From a virus, in IMG/VR virus record IMGVR_UViG_3300047562_003403, positions 1 through 23,932 of that record: 23,932 bases of DNA. The stretch is one strand, 5' to 3'. This document shows positions 3,281-23,932 of this stretch, one piece after another. Positions within the stretch are counted from its first letter, which is position 1. Each line of letters opens with the position of its first letter. The position numbers and the translations under genes are program-made. The notes beneath the pieces were generated by a model. The model saw only the letters and a program-made list of their open reading frames with translations. It was not told where the DNA came from and ran no database searches.

Positions 3281-3701
3281 CTACATTAACTCCGCTGGCT
3301 TTTAAAAAGTCAATGCCTGCTGTGTCACGATAATTATTTTTATAGTATACAGTATAAATTCCAGTCTGGTAAATTAATTTTGCACATTCTATGCAAGGTG
3401 CGTGTGTACAAAACATAATTCCATTTTTACCACTCTCAGTTGATTTAGCAAGTTTAGTAATAGCATTTGACTCTGCGTGTAATACCTGAGGTTTAGTTTT
3501 AAGAATAGGACTACCAACATCATCTATACTTACACAATCTTCACACTCATTATCCCAGCCACTAGGCATACCGTTGTATCCAATACTAATAATACGATCA
3601 TCTTTTACAACAATTGCACCAACTTTTAATCTAACTGCGTAGGATAATTGGGCAAATCTTTCAGCCACATCCATATATGCTTTTGCGAATTTATGCTTCA
3701 T
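3264..3701 (-). CDS. Deoxycytidylate (dCMP) deaminase
   Basis: Zinc enzyme converting dCMP to dUMP, supplying precursor for dTMP in phage DNA synthesis. Taking the ATG at 3701 it has 145 residues; the frame is open upstream to 3755 but that would overlap the ferredoxin gene by 65 bp, and alignment with the family starts at [15 protein letters not shown]. The catalytic motif HAESNA is at 75-80 (His75 zinc ligand, Glu77 proton shuttle) and APCIECAK at 101-108 supplies the two zinc cysteines, Cys103 and Cys106. GYNGMPSGW (41-49) is the usual substrate-loop block. A further Cys pair (ECEDC, about 52-55) could belong to the second zinc site seen in T4-type enzymes. It overlaps the ferredoxin gene by 11 bp and is the last gene of the operon. 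Its ribosome-binding site is weak (AGAGC), suggesting coupling. Confidence 0.93.
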
Positions 3702-4020
3702 TTTTTGCTCTAAATAGTTTTGTTTTATCTTCTGCGCTATTAGAATACTTTTCATATTCAGGCATTGGATCTTGCATTTGAGTAATGTTAGGCCATTTCA
3801 CAGAAAAATATTCATTATGTTTGTACCAAGGATCTTCTTTATTATCAGTTTGATAAATCGCATCCTCCGGACATTCGGGTACACATACTCCACAATCAAT
3901 ACACTCATCAGGATTAATAACAAGCATATTTGGTCCTTCATAGAAACAATCAACCGGGCAAACTTCTACACAGGTTGTGTGTTTACAATTAATACATTTA
4001 TCATTTACTAAGTGTGCCAT
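3691..4020 (-). CDS. fdxA: Seven-iron ferredoxin (FdxA type, [3Fe-4S][4Fe-4S])
   Basis: 109-residue electron-transfer protein. The N-terminal half matches the bacterial 7Fe ferredoxin pattern: Cys9, Cys12, Cys17, Cys21 and Cys25 in [17 protein letters not shown], then [12 protein letters not shown] and [12 protein letters not shown] with Cys40, 43, 46 and 50. By comparison with Azotobacter ferredoxin I (one residue shorter at the start), Cys9, 17 and 50 would bind the 3Fe cluster and Cys21, 40, 43 and 46 the 4Fe cluster. The C-terminal ~50 residues (KWPNITQM and a charged tail) are also typical of FdxA. The ATG is 1 bp after the upstream stop and the gene overlaps dCMP deaminase by 11 bp. It probably works in the infected cell with host reductases; its partner is unknown. 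All expected cysteines are present, so it looks functional. Confidence 0.93.
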
Positions 4021-8243: not shown

Positions 8244-8717
8244 TTATACTCCTTTAAAGAATTCGTTTAATGGTATATCGTATTTAACACTGTCGATCCG
8301 ATGGACCCCTAATAAATGGAGAACATAACTGGCTACACTAGATCCACGTCCTACACCCCAAACTATATTATTTTTTCTCAATGTATCTACAATGTATTTT
8401 ATTTGTTTTAACAGCATAAACATACCTTGTTTTTCAAAATGATGTAGTTCGGTCTGTACTCTGGCCATATACTTTTCATCATTAGGACATTGTTCCAAAA
8501 CATAGTTATAGATATCCATATCTCTATAACTGTCTGGCATAAACCAATTATTTGGATTTATTTCTGTTTTGGGTTTTGGATAATTTAAAAATTCTTGTTC
8601 TATACGTTTAATATAGTTGTCGAGGTTTTCAGAACAAACACAATGCTCAAGGATATCCGGACCGTGAGTTACAACACCTTCTACTAGTTGTTCTATTGTA
8701 TTTGTTTTAGTCGACAT
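8244..8717 (-). CDS. Stand-alone fragment of a C-family DNA polymerase (DnaE/PolC) palm
   Basis: 157 residues. From about residue 80 to the end it follows the start of the bacterial Pol III alpha palm: YMARVQTELHHFEKQGM matches the 'RL..EL..I...GF' helix, IKYIVDTLRKNNIVWGVGRG matches 'I.W....GI.VGPGRG', then SSVASYVLHLLGVHRID and VKYDIPLNEFF match 'SGAGSLVAYALGITDLDPL.Y.LLFERF'. GRGSS (123-127) is the hGS-type motif of the beta-nucleotidyltransferase fold. The protein ends right where full DnaE continues to its catalytic PDFDVDF, so the metal-binding aspartates are absent, as are the PHP domain, fingers and clamp-binding parts. It should be inactive as a polymerase. The N-terminal 80 residues have no recognisable relation. 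The start overlaps the previous gene by 11 bp, and no frameshifted continuation is found downstream. Confidence 0.75.
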   Translation of the reverse strand: MSTKTNTIEQLVEGVVTHGPDILEHCVCSENLDNYIKRIEQEFLNYPKPKTEINPNNWFMPDSYRDMDIYNYVLEQCPNDEKYMARVQTELHHFEKQGMFMLLKQIKYIVDTLRKNNIVWGVGRGSSVASYVLHLLGVHRIDSVKYDIPLNEFFKGV

Positions 8718-13926: not shown

Positions 13927-15813
13927 TTACGCCCCCGTTCCAGAATCAAGTTTCAGTTTGGCTGCTATTCTGTTTATAGCCTCGCCAATAGTAGTCGGAG
14001 GAGTTCCATTCCAATCACTTGGTGTAGTGGCAGTATATGTAATTTCTCCCAGATCATTAATAATTACGCTTGAGTCTTCTGCAAAAACAGTACCTATAAA
14101 GTTTCCTCGAATATCATCAGAAACAATAGGACCAACAATTTTTCCATCAACAGCATCAACTAACAGTGTTGAATCTTGTGCAAACACACTTCCTGTTACA
14201 TCTCCTGTATGATATCCTTCAAGATTACCTGTTAGGTTTCCTGTTATAGTTCCTGTAACTATTAGGTCTACTGTTTCTATCTCGTTATTAGCAGTAAAAG
14301 TATCTGCCTCTATAGATACTGCATTAATAGTGCTTCCTGATATGTTAGTAGAAGTTACTGATGTAGTGTCTACTATACCTACAATCTTTCCTGCTACACC
14401 ATCTACCAACAATGTACTATCGTCTGCAAATACTGAACCTGATATATCGCCTGTATGATAACCTGTAGTGTCACCTACTAGGTTTCCTGTAACGTTACCT
14501 GTAACGTTACCTGTTAGATTACCATATACATCTGCATATACGTCTGCAACAATTCTTCCAAGAATTCCGTCAACTAATAGTGTCGAGTCATCAGCAAATA
14601 CTGAACCGTTAATATCAATATTTTGATCAACGGAGATTGTCATTGTATCAGCAACAGCATCGTTAACAATGTTAATACCGTAACCAGTTATAAATTCTAA
14701 TGTGTCAGAAGTGCTGTCCGGACTAATTGTTGGCTGTCCGAGTACAACAAAACTTTGGAAAGTTGGAACCGCAGGAGCACTGTTTGAAACGTTAACAATA
14801 CCTGTTGCTGGATCTGCTGAAACTGTAATACCAAAGCCTGCTTCAACTTTAATAACACCTGTATTGGTAAGTGAAATACCACCAGTACCTGCACTTGTGC
14901 TAATACCTAAACCAGCAGCTCTACCGGTAGCCTCTGTTGGTAAAGATGTGCTATTTGATACGCTAGTTACACCAGTATTAGTTAATGTAATATTTCCTGT
15001 TGGTGTGCTAACACCAATACCTGTACTTCCTGTTAACTGTGTAACACCATCATTAATAAATGTAATACTATCTGCGTCACTTCCTGCAACTAATTGAACA
15101 CCAGTACCTCCATAGAATGATAATGTGTCATTAGTATGATCTGCTTCTACAGTATCACCGTCATCTAGGTTAATATATCTAAAATATCTTTTCTCAGGAT
15201 CTATGATTAAATCACCATTGATTGTTGAATCGGCTGGAAGATTAATTACTCCTCCAGCACCTGTAATTTGTGCTGTACCAATCCATAAACCATTATCTTC
15301 ATATCCCGGTGTTGAACTAGTTTCATCTAGATGTAATTCTTTCCATTGTTTTGCAGATGTACCTAGTGTATATAAATTAGTCGCTGCTGGTACAATGCTA
15401 GAACCAAAATTTGAAAAATCTAAATTACTAAATCCTAATAGTCCTTGAGTTTGACCACCGGAAACATATGTTCCGTAACCTGTTCCATTTACTGATACTG
15501 TAAGTGCATCGTCGGTATACAGAGAAAATGTTGTAGTTGTTAATACATTGGCATAATAGGTATTACCATTTAGTTCGGTCATACCAACTATATCAGTAAT
15601 TGTTACTTGTTGTCCATCAGTTAAACCGTGTGCTGAAGTAGTTGTTACTACAACTGGATTAGCCTTAGTAGCAGAAGAAATATCTTTTTGTTCACCGCCT
15701 GTAAGAGTTGCACCAATCAGTGTGAAGTTTTCATTGATTTGATCAAATGAATCTTTGATATTCTGCCATAGTAGTGGTGGTTTGCCTGGAGTAATATTAT
15801 TGCTATATCCCAT
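13927..15813 (-). CDS. Tail-fibre-like protein with internal repeats
   Basis: 628 residues, ATG at 15813 sharing one base with the stop of the giant gene (TAATG), GGGGAGA upstream. The N-terminal module is degenerate: NITPGKPPLLWQNIKDSFD, then QINENFTLIGATL (about 6-37). Residues about 57-110 hold one 'AHGL...NGNTYY...TTFSLY' module also found several times in the giant protein. LGTSAKQWKELHLD (150-163) is the fibre unit shared with the 392-residue protein. A block of GSVFADDSTLLVDG is found at 403-416 and 459-472, with variants at 541-554 (GSVFAQDSTLLVDA) and 574-587 (GTVFAEDSSVIIND); TGNV/TGNL tetrapeptides lie between copies. It ends with DWNGTPPTTIGEAINRIAAKL. The organisation is that of a long trimeric beta-fibre. 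Confidence 0.85.
   Translation of the reverse strand: MGYSNNITPGKPPLLWQNIKDSFDQINENFTLIGATLTGGEQKDISSATKANPVVVTTTSAHGLTDGQQVTITDIVGMTELNGNTYYANVLTTTTFSLYTDDALTVSVNGTGYGTYVSGGQTQGLLGFSNLDFSNFGSSIVPAATNLYTLGTSAKQWKELHLDETSSTPGYEDNGLWIGTAQITGAGGVINLPADSTINGDLIIDPEKRYFRYINLDDGDTVEADHTNDTLSFYGGTGVQLVAGSDADSITFINDGVTQLTGSTGIGVSTPTGNITLTNTGVTSVSNSTSLPTEATGRAAGLGISTSAGTGGISLTNTGVIKVEAGFGITVSADPATGIVNVSNSAPAVPTFQSFVVLGQPTISPDSTSDTLEFITGYGINIVNDAVADTMTISVDQNIDINGSVFADDSTLLVDGILGRIVADVYADVYGNLTGNVTGNVTGNLVGDTTGYHTGDISGSVFADDSTLLVDGVAGKIVGIVDTTSVTSTNISGSTINAVSIEADTFTANNEIETVDLIVTGTITGNLTGNLEGYHTGDVTGSVFAQDSTLLVDAVDGKIVGPIVSDDIRGNFIGTVFAEDSSVIINDLGEITYTATTPSDWNGTPPTTIGEAINRIAAKLKLDSGTGA
14053..14607 (-). 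repeat. Four copies of a ~42 bp coding repeat (GSVFADDSTLLVDG)
   Basis: Copies lie at 14607-14566, 14439-14398, 14193-14152 and 14094-14053, the last most diverged. Protein identity is high between the first two (13-14 of 14 residues) while third-codon positions differ widely, so the repeats are old or held by selection at the protein level. Spacing between copies is 168, 246 and 99 bp, all multiples of three. Confidence 0.85.
14486..14521 (-). repeat. Tandem 12 bp repeat encoding Thr-Gly-Asn-Val units
   Basis: Two identical 12 bp copies (14486-14497, 14498-14509) followed by a diverged third (14510-14521), coding for successive TGNV/TGNV/TGNL tetrapeptides. A similar degenerate run (TGTITGNLTGN) lies near 14224-14260. 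The unit length is a multiple of three, so gain or loss would keep the frame. Confidence 0.8.
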
Positions 15814-18800
15814 TATGATCTCCCCACTGCCACTTGAATTGTTCCAATATGATCACTATCATAATCTTCGATCGCCTTACCAACTATTGTTCCTACTTTA
15901 GGATCTGTTGTTACTGTTGCTACACCGTGTATTCCTGCTGTAACAAGAACATCACCTTTCTTGATTTTTCCAACTACTTTACAAGGAACTCTACCAGTTA
16001 GTGCAACAAGATTTTTCAATCCTGGACACGCAGTATACATCACGTATGCCGCAGTATTTGAAACAACACCAGCAACTCTTGTGTCACTGTTTTTATTTGT
16101 AGTTGTGACTTCCTTGTCACCACCAAATACTAACACTGTTCCGACTTCGTATTCCTTGTCACCTTCGTAGTATTCTGCAACGTCAGCACTATAAGTTGCT
16201 TCTAAACGTGATTCGTTTGGTGAAGTTCCTGTAAGTGTCCAACGTCCTGTAATTGTACCTGATGTTGTATTACCACCAGTGGTTAATGAAAGAGTTTGTA
16301 CTTGTGATGCTGTAATTGGTGCATTGGCCAAACCATTTTGTGTTTTAAATATATGGCTGTCGTTCCAATACTCAGTACGTTTGTCTGCGGCAAGTGTGCC
16401 ATCATTTAGATAGATACCACCATTGGTACCGTATGTATGTAATCTAATGTAACCACTAGATCCACTCAATGAACCTGTATCAATTGCTTCTTTGCCGTCA
16501 ATGTTTAATTGTGAAAGATCAGCAACACGAGCACCGAAGTCACCATTGCTATCTCTGTTTATAAGTTTATTGTTATCAGCAGTACCACTGTATGAAGCAG
16601 AAGTTTCGATAACAGTGTAGTCTACATCATTAGCGTTACTACCAGAATTAATTCTTCTCAATAAGCCTGTTACATTGTATTGAGATTTCTTAATACCGCC
16701 ACCACTATCAACAACAGTTGACATACCGATGTCTGCTGCATCTGCACTAGAAAGTCCGTTGTTACCTAATACACTCTTGGCAGCGACCTGTGCAAGTTTA
16801 TTTTTAGCAACACCGTTATTTTTAATTGTAACCCAACCGTTGCTTATTGTAAATTGTGCATCATCAAAACTCGCAATACCACTTGCTGCTTGAAGTACTT
16901 CGGCAGCACCTGTTGGTGCAAGAGCAGAAGTAGTAGCCAATTGCATAGTAAGTTTACTTTGCTCAATACCAGCAGCACTGTTAACGTCAGCATTTATAAT
17001 TGTGTCTGGTTCGATTTGTGCATCGATGGTGTTTGCTGTTGAGTCAATATTAAATGTGATATCACCTTGAACAGTTGCGTTGATAGCGTCACGTTCATTA
17101 CCTGTAAATACTAAAATTTGATTTGCTTGTAGATCAGTGAATGAAAAGTCAGACAAGTTGTCAAATCTAATTGCTGCTAGGTTAGCAGCATCATTTGGAT
17201 TAACTGGATCAGCAACGTTGATAATTTTATTGTTGCCAAGGTCCATAGCATTCTTCATATTCAACGAACCATCTAATGGCATAAAGCCACCACTCAATGG
17301 CGGAATTAGTTGAGCTTGTTCAATCGGTGCTCCACTGTGTGAAGTACCTAAACGTCTTTCAATATAAAGTCTTGTTGCGTTTTCTGTTGGAACAGTATCA
17401 ACAGCGTTGTCAGTCATACCTGAGTCTGTTGAGAATTCAGCAATAGGAACACCACGTTTAAATCCAATACCGTCCAAGTTACTCAACGCAATCGCAGCAG
17501 AGAATGTAACTTGACCTGTACCTTGGTCAACGCTGAAGTAAGGACCAACTCTAAAGTTACCAAATTGGTCAGTGGTCACATAGAATACACGTCCTACATC
17601 ACGTTCATCTGTTTCAGTATCTTGGTTAAGAGCATTAACCGGCGGACCATAAATTTCGTTTGGATAGTTTGTATCCGCATATGATCCTGTACCAACTTCA
17701 AGTAAATCGTGTGATGTAACACGAGTTAATGAAATTCTGATTGTTAGATTACCTTCTGCTCCAGTTGTTCTAATAGGAACAGCACTTCTTATAGTATAGG
17801 TAGCACCGTATGCAATAACACTGTCTTCTAATGGGCGGTTAAGAGTAATTCTTGCCCAAGGTTCACTTAAATCATCTTCTGATTCATATGTGGAAATAAT
17901 ATATTCTTCACCGTTGAATATAATTTTACTTCCAGCAACTCTTGCACGTTCTTGCGGAGCAACTGGAACAACAGCAAAATTATCATCGCCTACTCTACCT
18001 GTTACCAAACCATATGTATGAATACCACTTTGTGATCCACTTGTTTCTAAAGGAATCGCAGCAGCAAGACTTGGATGTTCAACACTGATAGTAAATGTAT
18101 CAAGAGTTGGAGTAGTAAACACAAAGAAATGTGATTGATTGTTAAGTCCGGTTGGTAGTGTACCACTGGTATCAAATCTAATTACATCTCCAACATTTAA
18201 TCCGTGACCTACTGATGTAACAATACAAGGAGCAGCAACAGTTAGTGTACAAGTAGTGGGACTAGTTACATATTCACCTGGTTTATAGATTGTTAAATCT
18301 ATATAGTTATAGTTTTCTCTAAGTGTTGTTTTACCTAGTCCTTCAACAATTCCTGAAATAGTTCCGGTACCTGTTGTGGTAGTTGCGATACCACTTAGTG
18401 TGGGAGCAATATCAATTTTAAAATCGATATTAGTTAAACCTTCTTCTAGAACATAATATTTTTCTCCTTCTAGAATTCCGGTTGGTAAGTCTCCAGTTGA
18501 TTCAAAACTTAACAGGTAATTTCTTTGCTGTTTGTGAGGAATCTTTCCTTTAATATTTAAACTGGTACCATCAACAAACGATGTAAGTTTAGCACCGCCC
18601 GATGTTGCTGCTAATGTAAATTCATCATAGTTAGGTGTAGATTCAATATAATAAACAGTACCTGCTGTTAATCCGTTATCAGATGTCTTCGGAACAAAGA
18701 AATCTCCTGTTCTTAATCCGTGCGTTCTGTTAGTGGTAAACAATTCATTACTTGAAATGTCTGTTACTGTTATTAAGAAAGTGACCTTAGCAGGATCTGC

Positions 18801-21800
18801 TGCGGTAAATTCAACTTCTGATAAACCTCTCGAATCTACATAATCTTCAAATTGAAGAACACGATAAACGTCTGAGGATTCTTGTAGTCTTAAACCTGTG
18901 GAAGGTCTTGTAGCAACTTCAACAATATCACCTGTTAAAACAATCTGTGAGTTTGAACGCAATGACATCTTAGTGCCATTTGGAATAGCATCATATAAGC
19001 CTTCAAAGTTACCTGTTGTGTCACTGGTTAAGTTTAGACGTGCAACACCTGTTGGTAAATCTTGAGTTGTAACAGAAGTTACTGGATATCTATAAATTAG
19101 GTTACCGTGGTCAACTTCAAGTTCTGAGTTGTTTAGAGGAACATAGTCGTAATTTGTTACATAAACAAATAATCCGTTTGCTGTGTTAGCATATTGTGCA
19201 GTAGGGAAATAACAATCAACTCTTTGTGCTAGGTCATAATACATTGTTACTGGGGTCGGAACTTCTAATGGATCTGAACCCTCTGCAACAAGAGCATACA
19301 CACCGTGAGCACTAGAACCGCCAACTGAACGTATCTGTGCACCATTCAATGAATAGTAAGAAGTATAACAGTAGTATGTGAACATTGATACTGCTTCTGT
19401 CAAACCACCGTTGGTTGCAATTAGACCGTATCCCATATCAGCAACTTGTGTAAAGTCGTTTGATAGCATTGATCTGTTACCAGGCATCAACACTTCATAT
19501 GATCTTTGATATTTGATTGTTCCTGATCCTGAACTGGTAATTTCAACAGGCACAGCAGATGCTGTAAAGTCGGTTGAAATTCTAAATGTGTTTACTGTTA
19601 GGCCGCTCTCCATAACAAAATATTCACGACCTGCTTCAATTCCGCCCGGCAATGTTCCTGTTGATGTGAATTTAATAATTGAATCGGCCTGCAATCCGTG
19701 ATTGGCTTTATTAATAACGCCTATTGCTGCAACTGTTACGCTATCAATAGTAATAGCACCAGGAGTTTTAGTAAATGGTGTTGTTTCGTCAAGAACAAAT
19801 GTAGCCGTTGAACCAGCAGGATCATAAACATAATCTCTTACATAGTTGATTCTGTAAACAGTATCGTCAACAATAAAAGAAGCCGGAAGTTGTGGTATTC
19901 TATCAAGGCCGGCAACTTTAAGTCTTGTATTGCCTGTTCCTGCTATTGTTTCAGAGTGTAAGAACTGTAAGTTTCCTGCGAATCCATCAACAAACATACC
20001 TCCCGCAAATGTTTGACTATTAATTGATTTGGAGAATGAAGCACACTCCTGTGCGTATGGTGACTTAGCAAGAATTTGTCCAGTTGGGTCAAGTACTAAG
20101 GAGAAACCTCCGTGTCCTTGCATTGTGAGACCTTGCCAACGAACAGCATCGTTCGCCATAAACACGTCCATCTGATCGTTTTCTTTAGGATAGTTAACAC
20201 TTCCTGAACCGTCAATAACATCAACTAATGCTGCGACCAATGCAGTAACAATTGCTTCTGATCCTGATTCTTTAACATATGCATTGTCTTGTATCTGTGG
20301 GAATACATCTTGATAGGTATCACTAATTAAAATATTATTAATAATATTATTAACCAAGTATTCAACTCTTTGAATACCTAAAATTGTTTCAGACTTCTGT
20401 GTAGTAATTGCTAATCTACCGCTGGCATTTTGATAATATTTTAAACCTGCGGAAATAGTTCTATTGTATTCTCCCCACTTGATGTCAAACACCATAGCAT
20501 CAACAATAAGACCAACATCACGTTTACACAATGCTTCATTATAGGAAAACGTTGTTGTGAACGGAGAAATATTATTAACAATTTGATAATTGATCCAACC
20601 AATTACTTCGTTCTGAATAAAAACTTTGTTTAGTTTAATTAATTGTGCAGCGGATTTTCTACCACCGCCATTATTAATTTTAGGATAAACAGGTTCTGAT
20701 GTATCCTGTAGATAATGATAACCAAATAGTCTATCAGTAACCTGCATTCCGTCGATCACAGGATCACGTCTAAATTTAATAAATGCCCAAGGAGAACTTG
20801 AAGTTCCTGGTTTTGGTTTTACAATACAACGTCTAAATTCATCACCCACAACAGAAACGTTCTGTGGAACTTTTAGTGGAAGGTTTTCTTCGTAGATACC
20901 ACTTTCAACTAATACTGTAATTTGTGTTTGGTTAGTGATGTCACCGTATGAAATTGGTTCGCCAATTTGGAAGTTTCCATACTTAATGTCAACATCAAAA
21001 ATCTCGTTTCCTAAACTATCTAATGCACCTTCGTGTGCAAGAATTTGTGCAAGAGCACCTGACTCTTCACCACGTAAGTATAACCCTTCTCTAATATCTC
21101 TTGTTCTAAATGCTACAGGAGTATCAGTTAAAACGTCACCTGTAAAGTCTGTACGATAACCTTCTGTTTTTAGTAAGAACCTTGGAAGGTCACCAACTAC
21201 ATTAGGAACAGTTGTAAATCCTGTACCTTCGTCTGTAATTTCAACAGAAGTAATTACTCCGGCAACAACTGTTGCTACACCAAAGGCTCCTCTGGTTTCT
21301 CCACCACCTGTAATTCTAATTGATACTAGACTGTAACCACTACCACCACTACTAATACTAACACCGTTAACTTTGTATGTAATATTAAATGTTGCACCAT
21401 TACCAAACGCACTATCTGTTGTAGACGTTACTCCTGTGCTTCCAGGCAATGCTGTATAGTTACCTGAAGATAATTGTCTAAATGTTAAAATAGCACCTGG
21501 TGTAGTAAGTGTTGTTAAAACTTCGTATCTAGCAGCATCGCCTGTGCCGCCTGCAATTTCTATAATGTCTCCAGCTCTGTAGTTTGTACCACCATTTGCT
21601 AGACTGATAGTATCAACACTTAGTGTTGGTGTTCCAGAAAATCCAGCACCACTATCTGGAGATGTTTCAACAGCATTAAGGATAACAATCCCACTGCCGT
21701 TGTTATATGTTAATAATTTTTTGTAAGGACCAATGTCATCATTGGATTCTAAAAGAATTTCTTCAGCACGTTTTAGTGCTGCTTCAATGGATCTGTATGC

Positions 21801-22505
21801 GTATGCTAATGCACGACCTTGTAGATCATCTGATACACCAGGACGCTCATCTGAACCACTGGTAGCAACATATAAGTTAACACTAGAACCGAACGATGAA
21901 CTATCTACATATTGTTTTGTAGCAGCAATTAATCCGCCATACAATTCATCATCATCTGGTTCTGGAGATCTAGAAAGGATCAGTGGACCACTCATTCTAC
22001 CAAATGAAGAGTTAACTCCACCAGTCTCAGGATCGATAGCATTTACACCAGCACGAGAAATTTTAGTGTCTACATATTCTTTATTTGCTGCTTCATCGTC
22101 TGTAATGGGAGTTACTAGATCTTGAATTCTATATTGATTACCACCCGATCTTGCAGATAGATCTCCACCTAACTGCGGTGATTGGTCACCGGAAATTTCA
22201 CTAAACTCTGTTGAAACAATAATTTCGTTAGGGTTACTTGTGTCATCAATTGTAACACCAACACCACCAGTAATTTGTTTAAACTTAACGCCATCAGTGG
22301 TTTCATTGACTGTTAGTACTGCACCTTCTTGTCCTAAAAAGGTTTCTGGAGTATCATCTAGGCCAATAAATGTTAACCTTTCGCCCAGTCCTAATGAACT
22401 ATAGAGTTCTCTAAAGTTATCATTTACTTTAGTAAACGAAGCTCTAATACTATCGCCGGTTCCGTCGTTACCTACAGCACCTACATCAATTACTTTTCTC
22501 GCCAT
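15813..22505 (-). CDS. Giant fibre-like virion protein (2230 residues)
   Basis: Largest gene in the window; ATG at 22505 with AGGGGAT upstream. Domains by residue: 4-40 the shared gp10-like module (VIDVGAVGNDGTGD, SFTKVNDNFRELY); 208-225 and 525-560 parts of a right-handed beta-helix of pectate-lyase type (LYVATSGSDERPG; VLVESGIYEENLPLKVPQNV); 290-440 three Gly-Gly-x-x-Tyr units (SLANGGTNYRAGDIIEI, SISSGGSGYSLVSIRI, EITDEGTGFTTVP); four HGL/GTLPTG modules at about 934-975, 1259-1300, 1330-1365 and 1431-1475; 1735-1765 PLSGGFMPLDGSLNM with D-L-x-N-x-K-I-x-N-V-A-D-P, frequent in tail fibres; about 2105-2230 a C-terminal domain beginning SADVAEYYEGD and containing GRVPCKVVGKIKKGDVLVTA, found at the end of many bacterial and phage surface proteins, perhaps a trimerising or chaperone domain. 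No catalytic residues identified. Probably a baseplate-attached long fibre or tailspike. Confidence 0.88.
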   Translation of the reverse strand: MARKVIDVGAVGNDGTGDSIRASFTKVNDNFRELYSSLGLGERLTFIGLDDTPETFLGQEGAVLTVNETTDGVKFKQITGGVGVTIDDTSNPNEIIVSTEFSEISGDQSPQLGGDLSARSGGNQYRIQDLVTPITDDEAANKEYVDTKISRAGVNAIDPETGGVNSSFGRMSGPLILSRSPEPDDDELYGGLIAATKQYVDSSSFGSSVNLYVATSGSDERPGVSDDLQGRALAYAYRSIEAALKRAEEILLESNDDIGPYKKLLTYNNGSGIVILNAVETSPDSGAGFSGTPTLSVDTISLANGGTNYRAGDIIEIAGGTGDAARYEVLTTLTTPGAILTFRQLSSGNYTALPGSTGVTSTTDSAFGNGATFNITYKVNGVSISSGGSGYSLVSIRITGGGETRGAFGVATVVAGVITSVEITDEGTGFTTVPNVVGDLPRFLLKTEGYRTDFTGDVLTDTPVAFRTRDIREGLYLRGEESGALAQILAHEGALDSLGNEIFDVDIKYGNFQIGEPISYGDITNQTQITVLVESGIYEENLPLKVPQNVSVVGDEFRRCIVKPKPGTSSSPWAFIKFRRDPVIDGMQVTDRLFGYHYLQDTSEPVYPKINNGGGRKSAAQLIKLNKVFIQNEVIGWINYQIVNNISPFTTTFSYNEALCKRDVGLIVDAMVFDIKWGEYNRTISAGLKYYQNASGRLAITTQKSETILGIQRVEYLVNNIINNILISDTYQDVFPQIQDNAYVKESGSEAIVTALVAALVDVIDGSGSVNYPKENDQMDVFMANDAVRWQGLTMQGHGGFSLVLDPTGQILAKSPYAQECASFSKSINSQTFAGGMFVDGFAGNLQFLHSETIAGTGNTRLKVAGLDRIPQLPASFIVDDTVYRINYVRDYVYDPAGSTATFVLDETTPFTKTPGAITIDSVTVAAIGVINKANHGLQADSIIKFTSTGTLPGGIEAGREYFVMESGLTVNTFRISTDFTASAVPVEITSSGSGTIKYQRSYEVLMPGNRSMLSNDFTQVADMGYGLIATNGGLTEAVSMFTYYCYTSYYSLNGAQIRSVGGSSAHGVYALVAEGSDPLEVPTPVTMYYDLAQRVDCYFPTAQYANTANGLFVYVTNYDYVPLNNSELEVDHGNLIYRYPVTSVTTQDLPTGVARLNLTSDTTGNFEGLYDAIPNGTKMSLRSNSQIVLTGDIVEVATRPSTGLRLQESSDVYRVLQFEDYVDSRGLSEVEFTAADPAKVTFLITVTDISSNELFTTNRTHGLRTGDFFVPKTSDNGLTAGTVYYIESTPNYDEFTLAATSGGAKLTSFVDGTSLNIKGKIPHKQQRNYLLSFESTGDLPTGILEGEKYYVLEEGLTNIDFKIDIAPTLSGIATTTTGTGTISGIVEGLGKTTLRENYNYIDLTIYKPGEYVTSPTTCTLTVAAPCIVTSVGHGLNVGDVIRFDTSGTLPTGLNNQSHFFVFTTPTLDTFTISVEHPSLAAAIPLETSGSQSGIHTYGLVTGRVGDDNFAVVPVAPQERARVAGSKIIFNGEEYIISTYESEDDLSEPWARITLNRPLEDSVIAYGATYTIRSAVPIRTTGAEGNLTIRISLTRVTSHDLLEVGTGSYADTNYPNEIYGPPVNALNQDTETDERDVGRVFYVTTDQFGNFRVGPYFSVDQGTGQVTFSAAIALSNLDGIGFKRGVPIAEFSTDSGMTDNAVDTVPTENATRLYIERRLGTSHSGAPIEQAQLIPPLSGGFMPLDGSLNMKNAMDLGNNKIINVADPVNPNDAANLAAIRFDNLSDFSFTDLQANQILVFTGNERDAINATVQGDITFNIDSTANTIDAQIEPDTIINADVNSAAGIEQSKLTMQLATTSALAPTGAAEVLQAASGIASFDDAQFTISNGWVTIKNNGVAKNKLAQVAAKSVLGNNGLSSADAADIGMSTVVDSGGGIKKSQYNVTGLLRRINSGSNANDVDYTVIETSASYSGTADNNKLINRDSNGDFGARVADLSQLNIDGKEAIDTGSLSGSSGYIRLHTYGTNGGIYLNDGTLAADKRTEYWNDSHIFKTQNGLANAPITASQVQTLSLTTGGNTTSGTITGRWTLTGTSPNESRLEATYSADVAEYYEGDKEYEVGTVLVFGGDKEVTTTNKNSDTRVAGVVSNTAAYVMYTACPGLKNLVALTGRVPCKVVGKIKKGDVLVTAGIHGVATVTTDPKVGTIVGKAIEDYDSDHIGTIQVAVGRS

Positions 22506-22544: not shown

Positions 22545-22585
22545 AATTCATTCTATAAGCCTAATGTAAAAGTGTAAATACTTGT

Positions 22586-22849
22586 ATGTTTTTAGGTACA
22601 GAACAAAAGATAACTGAACACAAACGCAAGAGCAAACTTGGAAAAACTCACACCTACAATAGAGTAAAAACCATTGTAAGTTTACGTTGTGACAATTGTG
22701 ATACAGTATTTACCAGGGATCTCAAAAAGATCAATAGAGCCCGGCTGAGCAACAACTACTTTCACGTATGTTCTAACTGTGATGCAAAACGCTTTGCACA
22801 AAGATGGGATATGCCAGCAAGTGCTGATATCCCTATTTCTAAATATTAG
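22586..22849 (+). CDS. Small zinc-ribbon protein (87 residues)
   Basis: Two CxxC pairs, CDNC (about 35-38) and CSNC (about 61-64), about 22 residues apart, with basic residues between (RDLKKINRARLSNNYFHV), fit a zinc ribbon or HNH-like finger; the catalytic His residues of a nuclease are not evident. The N-terminus is strongly basic (EHKRKSKLGKTHTYNRVK), suggesting nucleic-acid binding. Plus strand, alone, divergent from the giant fibre gene and convergent with the IscA-like gene (stops 8 bp apart). No Shine-Dalgarno precedes the ATG; a late-like TGTAAATA ends 5 bp before it, so the message could be nearly leaderless. No other in-frame ATG is available before residue ~75. Function unknown; a transcription factor or nuclease accessory is thinkable. 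Confidence 0.75.
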   Translation: MFLGTEQKITEHKRKSKLGKTHTYNRVKTIVSLRCDNCDTVFTRDLKKINRARLSNNYFHVCSNCDAKRFAQRWDMPASADIPISKY

Positions 22850-22857
22850 CAGTTAAT

Positions 22858-23184
22858 TTATACAGCGAAACTTTCGCCGCAACCGCAACTAGATGTTACG
22901 TTAGGATTTCTAATTTGAAGATAGGAACCGAATGTTTCTTCTACAAAGTCAATTGTGGTTCCGATAACATAAAGCAGGCTGGCAGAATCTATTGCTAGAT
23001 CTCCGTTTCTTAATTGAATTATTTCATCGTCAAACTCTTTAGAATCTGACATTTCCCATAGGTAAGAAAAGCCGGCGCACCCGCCGCCTTTTACTTTCAG
23101 ACGTACGACGGGTTTGCCTTCTTTTTCTATTAGGCGTTCTAGATGCCTAATTGCTGATTCTGTAAGATCAACAGCCTGTGGCAT
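22858..23184 (-). CDS. A-type iron-sulfur carrier (IscA/ErpA/HesB family)
   Basis: 108 residues from the ATG at 23184; an in-frame upstream ATG at 23232 would overlap the membrane-protein gene by 47 bp and is unlikely. The family signature is complete: Cys36 in VKGGGCAGFSY, and Cys100 and Cys102 in the C-terminal SSCGCGESF, with 63 residues between the first two cysteines. LTESAIRHLERLI at the start and IGTTIDFVEE in the middle also fit. Such proteins receive and deliver [2Fe-2S] or [4Fe-4S] clusters. HesB/IscA-like genes are known in marine cyanophages. Candidate clients in this window include the seven-iron ferredoxin. It is third in the group with SOD and a membrane protein. Ribosome-binding site weak (AAAAG), so translation may depend on coupling with the gene before it, whose stop is 1 bp away. 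Confidence 0.93.
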   Translation of the reverse strand: MPQAVDLTESAIRHLERLIEKEGKPVVRLKVKGGGCAGFSYLWEMSDSKEFDDEIIQLRNGDLAIDSASLLYVIGTTIDFVEETFGSYLQIRNPNVTSSCGCGESFAV

Positions 23185-23185
23185 C

Positions 23186-23356
23186 TTACTTTTCTTTTTT
23201 CCACAAGGTCCAAGCACCATAAGCAATTGCACCGTATGCTACTAGTTTTGCTAATGGTCCTGCGATTAAAACTACTACACCTACACCAATTAGAACGGCT
23301 CCGTCCCAAGAGGTTCTTTCGTCAAGTCTTTCTTTAATCCAAGTAATAGGATTCAT
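23186..23356 (-). CDS. Small membrane protein (56 residues)
   Basis: Starting at the ATG at 23356 (AAGGAG 6 bp upstream, inside the last codons of the SOD gene); an ATG at 23389 in the same frame has no support. Residues 1-17 are polar (MNPITWIKERLDERTSW), then DGAVLIGVGVVVLIAGPLAKLVAYGAIAYGAWTLW forms one long or two short hydrophobic helices broken by Gly-Pro, ending KKEK. It looks like a tail-anchored or hairpin membrane protein. No family function is known to me. Lying between SOD and the Fe-S carrier, it is probably co-expressed with them. A holin-like role could be imagined from size, but nothing beyond topology supports it. Confidence 0.8.
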   Translation of the reverse strand: MNPITWIKERLDERTSWDGAVLIGVGVVVLIAGPLAKLVAYGAIAYGAWTLWKKEK

Positions 23357-23357
23357 A

Positions 23358-23924
23358 TTATTCTCCTTGTAATCTGTCGTTAACGACATTCCAATTTATT
23401 ATCTTCCAAATATTGTTTAGATATTTGGATTTATCGTGTTGGTAATCAAGTGCGAAAGCGTGTTCCCACATATCTACCAACAGGGCAATTTTCATACCCT
23501 TTGTATATTTGTGGTTACTAATAGTTTTGATATTTCCTTTAGTATCCATATATACCCAGCCCGACCCTTGAATGCTCATTGCTGATTTAATAAACTCATC
23601 TTTGAACTTTTCAAAGTTGCCGTGCTTGTTATTAATTAGTTGTTCGCTAGTTCCACTAGGTTTATTTCCGACTGTAGGTGGTTGCATTTGAGGGAAGAAA
23701 ATATTATGTAATGTGGCACCTCCGTAGTTGAATGAGTCATCACCCTCTTTGTCATTGTATCTGCGTACATAAGCGGCCGCTAATTTTCCAAAATGATAAT
23801 CTACGGTATCCTTGCTCATTACAGGATCTAAATCATCACGTTTGTAAGGAAGGTTTTCCTGCACCAATTTATCACGGGCAGTTTCTGCTTCAATAATAAA
23901 ATCTCTATATTTTTTTAGGTCCAT
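23358..23924 (-). CDS. Iron/manganese superoxide dismutase
   Basis: 188 residues, full length for the family; ATG at 23924 near the right edge. Metal ligands: His44 (DYHFGK), His73 (ATLHNIFF), Asp151 and His155 (DMWEHAF). Tyr52, the active-site tyrosine (E. coli Mn-SOD Tyr34), is present. SGWVYMD and YLNNIWKIINWNVV are typical C-terminal blocks. Aligned by eye to E. coli SodA/SodB: the gateway His30 is replaced by Leu48; the Fe-SOD Gln69 position is Gly69 as in Mn-SOD; and the Mn-SOD Gln146 region has a shortened loop with His138 there instead. It has no signal peptide, so acts in the host cytoplasm, disproportionating superoxide. It is first of a three-gene set with a small membrane protein and an IscA-type carrier; the upstream promoter is outside the window. 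Confidence 0.93.
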   Translation of the reverse strand: MDLKKYRDFIIEAETARDKLVQENLPYKRDDLDPVMSKDTVDYHFGKLAAAYVRRYNDKEGDDSFNYGGATLHNIFFPQMQPPTVGNKPSGTSEQLINNKHGNFEKFKDEFIKSAMSIQGSGWVYMDTKGNIKTISNHKYTKGMKIALLVDMWEHAFALDYQHDKSKYLNNIWKIINWNVVNDRLQGE

Positions 23925-23932
23925 ACTGTATT

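Follow-up and report, generated by a model that had tools for sequence, protein, structure and literature searches.

The hydrogen-bond network formed by His30, Tyr34 and Gln143 has been described as conserved throughout the Mn and Fe superoxide dismutases (SODs), where it acts as a proton relay (PMC5836015), and in Caenorhabditis elegans MnSOD the hydrogen-bond partner of His30 on the second subunit is Tyr162 (PMC8190026; compare Escherichia coli SodA Tyr174). Among the described Fe/Mn superoxide dismutases (SodFM), the SodFM4 enzymes of CPR, archaea and some bacteria resemble the phage SODs reported here in a C-terminal outer-sphere His, in the loss of one or more histidines of the HXXXHH motif and in a Phe at the Trp85 site; in SodFM4 a His of HXXXHH is lost and a C-terminal His is usual, this water-coordinating residue being typical of SodFM3 and SodFM4 and present in ~75% of SodFM4 members (Sendra et al., 2023; PMC10172142). 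The top PDB sequence matches to the phage protein, at 33-37% identity, are the SodFM2 enzymes of Bacteroides fragilis (8avl) and Porphyromonas gingivalis (1qnn), both cambialistic and also among its good structure matches, but unlike it they keep His30 and Tyr174, a long hairpin and an N-terminal Gln of the SodFM2 type. For viruses, an Fe/Mn SOD is also listed among the AMGs of Microcystis viruses (PMC12542629). We found no literature on the structure or residues of viral SODs, and neither loss of the gateway nor a compact hairpin in phage SODs is described in any of the papers found.

The DNA analysed is a 23.9-kb IMG/VR virus fragment (IMGVR_UViG_3300047562_003403, positions 1 to 23,932), and this whole stretch is referred to below as the window. 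It carries T4-like phage genes for a clamp loader, dCMP deaminase, PhoH, endonuclease VII, MazG and baseplate and tail fibre proteins, and no Rfam match or tRNA was found within it. Near its end lies the gene that is the subject of this analysis:

23358..23924, minus strand: phage SodFM gene, 188 aa (Pfam domains, AlphaFold, structure matches, dN/dS)

The preliminary description of this DNA, made from the letters alone, had proposed a phage superoxide dismutase here, and the ORF is indeed an Fe/Mn SOD. Both Pfam domains exceed their cut-offs (Sod_Fe_N, 39 bits against 27; Sod_Fe_C, 87 bits against 20.9), the AlphaFold model built with 22 sequences has a pLDDT of 92.3 and a pTM of 0.85, and solved SODs of all classes match that model with Z ~25 and an rmsd of 1.7-2.1 over 166-173 residues (Foldseek, VIA-align). 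The gene is under purifying selection, as dN/dS against relatives is 0.03-0.08, and below 0.1 in both measurable comparisons with the window, with dS saturated; the sole pair without dS saturation (L003/L006) gives 0.026. PHROGs holds no family for the window SOD. Host contamination was considered and is ruled out, because dozens of viral records have this SOD beside genes for tail fibres and baseplates. Two other genes of the window deserve mention in their own right. A 157-aa protein (8244-8717, minus strand) has as its sole match a Pol III alpha NTPase domain over 77 residues and has homologues in two related loci (L330 and L070); here a T4-like phage carries part of a replicative polymerase as a separate protein. 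In a 2230-aa baseplate/fibre protein (15813-22505, minus strand) Pfam recognises only the N-terminus, of the T4 gp9/10 type.

Residue equivalences are given relative to E. coli SodA and SodB, which served as numbering anchors in the wide alignment. The positions of interest, all on the minus strand, are:

23793..23795, minus strand: His44, metal ligand (SodA His26), invariant
23781..23783, minus strand: Leu48 at the gateway position (SodA His30), Leu in 112/113 viral SODs
23769..23771, minus strand: Tyr52 (SodA Tyr34), invariant in the viral set
23709..23768, minus strand: shortened N-terminal helical hairpin, residues 53-72 (ligand spacing, predicted helices)
23706..23708, minus strand: His73, metal ligand (SodA His81), from alignments
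23511..23513, minus strand: His138 at the outer-sphere Gln146 position, His in 104 and Gln in 2 of 106 motif-matched viral SODs
23478..23480, minus strand: Leu149, the XD-2 metal-preference residue, Leu in 108/112 viral SODs
23472..23474, minus strand: Asp151, metal ligand (SodA Asp167), from alignments
23460..23465, minus strand: Glu154-His155, equivalent to the SodA dimer-bridging Glu170 and ligand His171, invariant
23451..23453, minus strand: Ala158 at SodA Tyr174, the cross-dimer hydrogen-bond partner of His30, Ala in 101/113 viral SODs

Within the SodFM fold, His44, His73, Asp151 and His155 supply the three His and one Asp that bind the metal, and with Tyr52 they bear out the earlier observation that the four ligands and the active-site Tyr are kept. 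The spacing His44-x3-Leu48-x3-Tyr52 is identical, without a gap, to E. coli His26-x3-His30-x3-Tyr34, and H-x3-L-x3-Y recurs in 112/112 members of the viral clade; therefore, no shift of the alignment could bring a His to the gateway, and this explanation of the Leu is ruled out. A His at the gateway together with a Gln in the outer sphere, the arrangement expected had the earlier alignment been shifted, was looked for and not found.

The proposal that His138 takes the place of the outer-sphere Gln also stands. This residue lies in a T-I-x-N-[H/Q] stretch that aligns with STANQ of SodA and STSNA of SodB, and two relatives (L002 and L033) have a Gln exactly at its position. The short loop after the C-terminal outer-sphere site makes the wide MAFFT alignment slip there by one or two columns, so the assignment of His138 is based on the motif and on these natural Gln variants rather than on model coordinates. 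The exchange of His and Gln at this position is the switch known for the outer-sphere site.

A first scan of IMG/VR gave 135 relatives of the window SOD and a profile scan at least 552; residue counts are from 113 distinct viral SODs, of which 112 form the viral clade and one (L107), the single exception to Leu at position 30, is an ordinary His-type SOD very near a bacterial one. The window SOD shares its loss of the gateway His with hundreds of relatives in aquatic phages. Several features that the preliminary description had not mentioned accompany it, namely the replacement of Tyr174 by Ala158, a deletion in the hairpin, the XD-2 Leu, and the occurrence of the same gateway Leu in cellular SodFM4-like enzymes. 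Tyr is found at position 174 in only 1 of the 113 viral SODs and in 111/111 cellular SODs with His30. The distance between the first two ligands (His26 to His81) is 28-29 residues in 112/112 members of the viral clade versus 45-56 in 149 cellular SODs, a deletion of ~20 residues in the N-terminal helical hairpin, and the model of the window SOD has two short helices there (38-57 and 63-79). The XD-2 Leu was not found in the commonest cellular classes, and this residue and the hairpin deletion are specific to the phage clade. While the ligands, Tyr34, Trp128, Trp169, Glu170 and His171 are invariant in the viral clade, the gateway pair, the hairpin and XD-2 are altered together.

Among cultured phages, the clade takes in Vibrio phage 2.275.O and the Pseudomonas jumbo phages of the PA5oct/MIJ3 group; their SODs, like that of an uncultured Caudovirales (BFVD A0A6J5L7W0, 51% identical to the window SOD), are annotated by name only. 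In IMG/VR the MIJ3 SOD has one close relative (L249) and none was confirmed for that of Vibrio phage 2.275.O. Several GenBank SODs labelled as 'phage' (Staphylococcus, Salmonella and Listeria entries) were set aside, since they match at only 26-29% and resemble host SODs in mislabelled or host-containing records. A scan of genome contigs found a SOD like the viral ones only in L082, from a Methylophilaceae MAG, where it lies on a phage contig with its 5' part frame-broken.

Comparison with cellular enzymes bears on the origin of the gateway Leu. A Leu at position 30 also occurs in 39 of the 151 cellular SODs sampled, all SodFM4-like and found by searching Patescibacteria, Actinomycetota, Pseudomonadota and single genomes of Verrucomicrobiota and Chlamydiota. 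This Leu is therefore not confined to phages, and the earlier claim of a near-invariant gateway His fails even though its replacement by Leu48 in the window SOD, with its exact spacing, holds. In these cellular SODs position 31 is mostly Tyr and position 174 mostly Met or Phe, in agreement with the published description of SodFM4 (PMC10172142). When the window SOD is compared with the residues that define the SodFM subfamilies, it has those of SodFM4, a C-terminal His (His138) and no C-terminal His in the HXXXHH motif, which reads HFGKLA; it lacks the C-terminal Gln and intact HXXXHH of SodFM1 and SodFM5 (it has His138 and Leu48/Ala49) and the N-terminal Gln of SodFM2 (the column of SodB Gln69 is Gly in 112/113 viral SODs, including this one).

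A full-column tree in which the viral clade is sister to the SodFM4-like sequences (SH-aLRT 89) and the Phe that both have at the Trp85 site suggest that the phage SODs may be a viral branch of SodFM4, in which the Leu gateway and C-terminal His were inherited and the hairpin tip was lost later. L-Y at positions 30-31 in the deepest phage branches (Pseudomonas phage MIJ3 and Vibrio phage 2.275.O) and in L249, and a Met at 174 in MIJ3, the commonest residue there in SodFM4-like sequences, point the same way. We put this origin at slightly less than even odds. Other comparisons speak against it. Once the gateway, outer-sphere and hairpin columns are removed, the viral clade itself is recovered at 100/100 but its placement test gives a p-AU of 0.51, and in hhalign the viral profile is nearer to His30-type SODs (E 2.7e-41, score 266) than to SodFM4-like ones (2.9e-29, score 190). 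Unlike the phage SODs, the SodFM4-like sequences sampled have a full-length hairpin, mostly RGW or IGW in place of GSGW (109/112 viral versus 0/39), F/YEH in place of WEH (D-x-WEH in 112 viral versus 6 SodFM4-like sequences), and mostly one residue fewer between the ligand His and the Leu.

The conserved LPY, GSGW and D-x-WEH motifs and the stronger profile match to His30-type SODs are what would be expected if the Leu gateway and C-terminal His had instead arisen independently in phages, convergently with SodFM4, from an ancestor of SodFM1, SodFM2 or SodFM3 type, and the tree without the trait columns nests the clade, weakly (89/21), among His30-type rows. We put this second origin at somewhat below even odds. 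Against it, the stem of the clade is so long (1.2-1.3 changes per column) that its placement cannot be relied on, and L-Y and Met174 in the deep phage branches look SodFM4-like. Since the residues are those of SodFM4 while the motifs and the profile differ from it and the p-AU is 0.51, the phage SODs are here named a phage-specific SodFM lineage that may have either ancestry.

Staphylococcus aureus SodM is a SodFM1 enzyme that, unlike the phage SOD, has an HXXXHH motif, a C-terminal Gln and a full hairpin. At XD-2, a known determinant of metal preference (PMC10172142), it has Leu as do the phage SODs, and it is cambialistic (CR 1.2; PMC13008324). In addition, C. elegans MnSOD became cambialistic through the Q142H substitution, and Fe uptake was higher with H30N (PMC8190026; PMC9208312). 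Both the XD-2 Leu and the outer-sphere His of the phage SODs speak against a strict Mn preference, and cambialism of the phage SOD, as the preliminary description had suggested, is plausible. The enzyme is most likely active with Fe, and to a certain extent also with Mn; by judgement rather than computation, our estimate is ~65% for an Fe-using or cambialistic enzyme, ~25% for a Mn-preferring one and ~10% for an inactive one. Metal preference is not reliably readable from the XD-2, outer-sphere and gateway residues, because of the epistasis reported in the papers cited and because an active SodFM4 of CPR bacteria prefers Mn (PMC13370989). The suggestion that the phage SOD is adapted to a low-iron cell is not supported, as its gene sits among genes of Fe-S cluster assembly.

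With its gateway lost the phage SOD could be slow, because H30V human MnSOD is nearly without catalysis (k1 of ~0.005 versus 1.5 per nM per s, ~300-fold lower; PMC9208312). Natural SodFM4 SODs that have been expressed are active (PMC10172142; PMC13370989), and with the same gateway loss in the SodFM4-like enzymes of our sample it follows that this loss need not abolish activity. Human H30N/Y166F is little worse than the single mutants (PMC9208312), a result consistent with joint loss of the gateway pair. Loss of the gateway proton relay and the nearly dead H30V enzyme could also mean that the protein has ceased to work as a fast SOD and serves as a structural or regulatory metal-binding protein, or as a store of Mn or Fe. 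This we consider improbable, given the invariance of all ligands, Tyr34, Trp128, Trp169 and Glu170 in the clade, the His/Gln exchange in two members, which is a tuning change known from active enzymes, and the activity of a SodFM4 enzyme (PMC13370989).

Viral AMGs for Fe-S cluster assembly are known, for example sufE and nifU (PMC8940887), and the phages considered here likewise carry genes of Fe-S cluster biogenesis; a link to a neighbouring SOD or a near-complete SUF set was not reported in the papers found on viral Fe-S AMGs. The relevant features in the window and in related records are:

23186..23356, minus strand: small conserved hydrophobic ORF, 56 aa, likely start 23356 (homologues beside the SOD in 13 loci)
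22858..23184, minus strand: IscA/ErpA-like A-type Fe-S carrier, likely start 23184 (Pfam Fe-S_biosyn, 60 bits; TIGR00049)
3691..4020, minus strand: FdxA-like ferredoxin of the window phage (Pfam Fer4; NCBIfam FdxA 132.9 bits, just below the cut-off of 135)
L003:3102-4385, minus strand, and G366:C1:30857-32059: full-length IscS cysteine desulfurase beside the SOD in near relatives of the window phage, over the curated equivalog cut-off
G402:C1:2300-4400 and G400:C1:130600-134400: phage SUF genes
L330 2465-8800, minus strand: SOD followed by SufB, SufC, a SufD remnant, SufS, SufE, SufT and SufA

The SOD, the small ORF and the IscA-like gene form a tight operon: the ATG of the small ORF is one base past the SOD stop, with its ribosome-binding site inside the end of the SOD gene, and the ATG of the IscA-like gene is one base past the stop of the small ORF. 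The IscA-like protein scores 104.2 bits with TIGR00049 (cut-off 58.8) and falls below every equivalog cut-off of IscA, SufA and ErpA. In 30 of 48 unique viral loci, and not in the other 18, the 2 kb downstream of the SOD include an IscA-like gene on the same strand, and whole records contain one in 32 of 50 SOD-bearing cases; none was found in some large SOD-bearing records (G009, G396 and G405). The link between SOD and Fe-S genes is thus common and not obligatory. In the close relatives L003 and L009 the SOD has a full-length IscS beside it (684-685 bits, equivalog cut-off 643), SufB/D genes occur in the G400 and G402 records, and in G402 the SOD adjoins a SufC-like gene whose product, at 188 bits, stays below the cut-off of 213. 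The L330 contig is binned with a Methylophilaceae MAG yet carries terminase, tail sheath and T4-type replication genes; at ~8400-8900 in L330/L082 the 5' part of the SOD is frame-broken, and SufS is among the SUF frames that are also broken, through assembly errors or decay. The economical reading of these neighbours is that, during infection, the SOD would guard either the assembly of Fe-S clusters or the enzymes that contain them. A further gene next to the operon, orf87 (22586-22849, plus strand), encodes an 87-aa Cys-rich (CxxC...CxxC) protein between the fibre and IscA genes; it has homologues in 35 of 84 SOD loci and no Pfam match.

The T4 late-promoter element is TATAAATA. In the window, elements of this kind are found at two sites:

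22550-22585: TAAATA (T4-late-like) element site
23925..23932, minus strand: AATACAGT directly 5' of the SOD ATG, what the record end leaves of a TAAATA late-promoter-like element 4 nt ahead of the start (from near relatives)

Of the second element only AATACAGT is visible, as the record ends there; the near relatives L003, L005, L006, L008 and L009 have TATAAATACAGT-ATG, and AATACAGT is the same as their bases. In 73 of 110 unique phage SODs, which come from related and not independent loci, TAAATA ends 4-8 nt before the candidate start (4-5 nt in 69), compared with 1.4% of background ATGs that have TAAATA anywhere within 25 nt. Over all long ORFs of these phages TAAATA peaks at 4-5 nt, where 68 of the 133 starts belong to SODs, with a second, lower peak at ~18-24 nt. 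An element 4-5 nt before the ATG would place the start of transcription at or next to that ATG, so we infer a leaderless late mRNA for the SOD. The same spacing is seen for the orf87 CxxC gene, a PAAR-like gene and others (viral loci L002-L081 and L249-L329). These positions suggest that leaderless late mRNAs may be a feature of this phage group.

As a joint explanation, to which we assign a probability of about 0.6, the phage gene would encode a competent, compact SodFM of a phage lineage, with a hydrophobic gateway, working as a dimer with Fe and some Mn, made late and acting with IscA to keep up the supply of Fe-S clusters. The family, the fold, the residue equivalences, the clade-wide conservation, the operon and the Fe-S linkage are shown by the data above; that the enzyme is active, which metal it uses, how many subunits it has, when it is made and what it does for the phage are our inferences. 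Superoxide would pass Tyr52 and a remodelled hydrophobic gateway, formed by Leu48 with Ala158 of the second subunit and its neighbour in place of the hydrogen-bonded His30-Tyr174' pair, to reach Fe or Mn bound by three His and one Asp, and His138 rather than Gln would hold the metal-bound solvent. The shortening of the hairpin, by ~20 residues relative to every one of the 151 cellular SODs, argues against a homotetramer of the SodFM4 type, built on the N-terminal hairpin, and most likely abolishes the tetramer interface, leaving a dimer joined through the Glu154/His155 bridge. Probably produced late in infection, the SOD and its IscA-like operon partner (IscS or SUF elsewhere) would sustain the supply of Fe-S clusters as superoxide rises.

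A broader proposal, which is speculative and in our view rather unlikely as it stands, is that aquatic phages hold a sixth SodFM subfamily, compact, dimeric, gateway-less, late and leaderless, that serves as the oxidative-stress arm of a phage Fe-S assembly programme, with near-complete SUF in some. If true, superoxide would be dismutated there in the absence of the His30 relay, which is regarded as general among Fe/Mn SODs. A large natural family that lacks both His30 and its cross-subunit partner and is much smaller than other SODs offers a direct test of the role of the gateway and of the minimal size of a SodFM, and the recurrence of IscA, IscS or SUF neighbours suggests that phages may protect or rebuild Fe-S clusters during infection.
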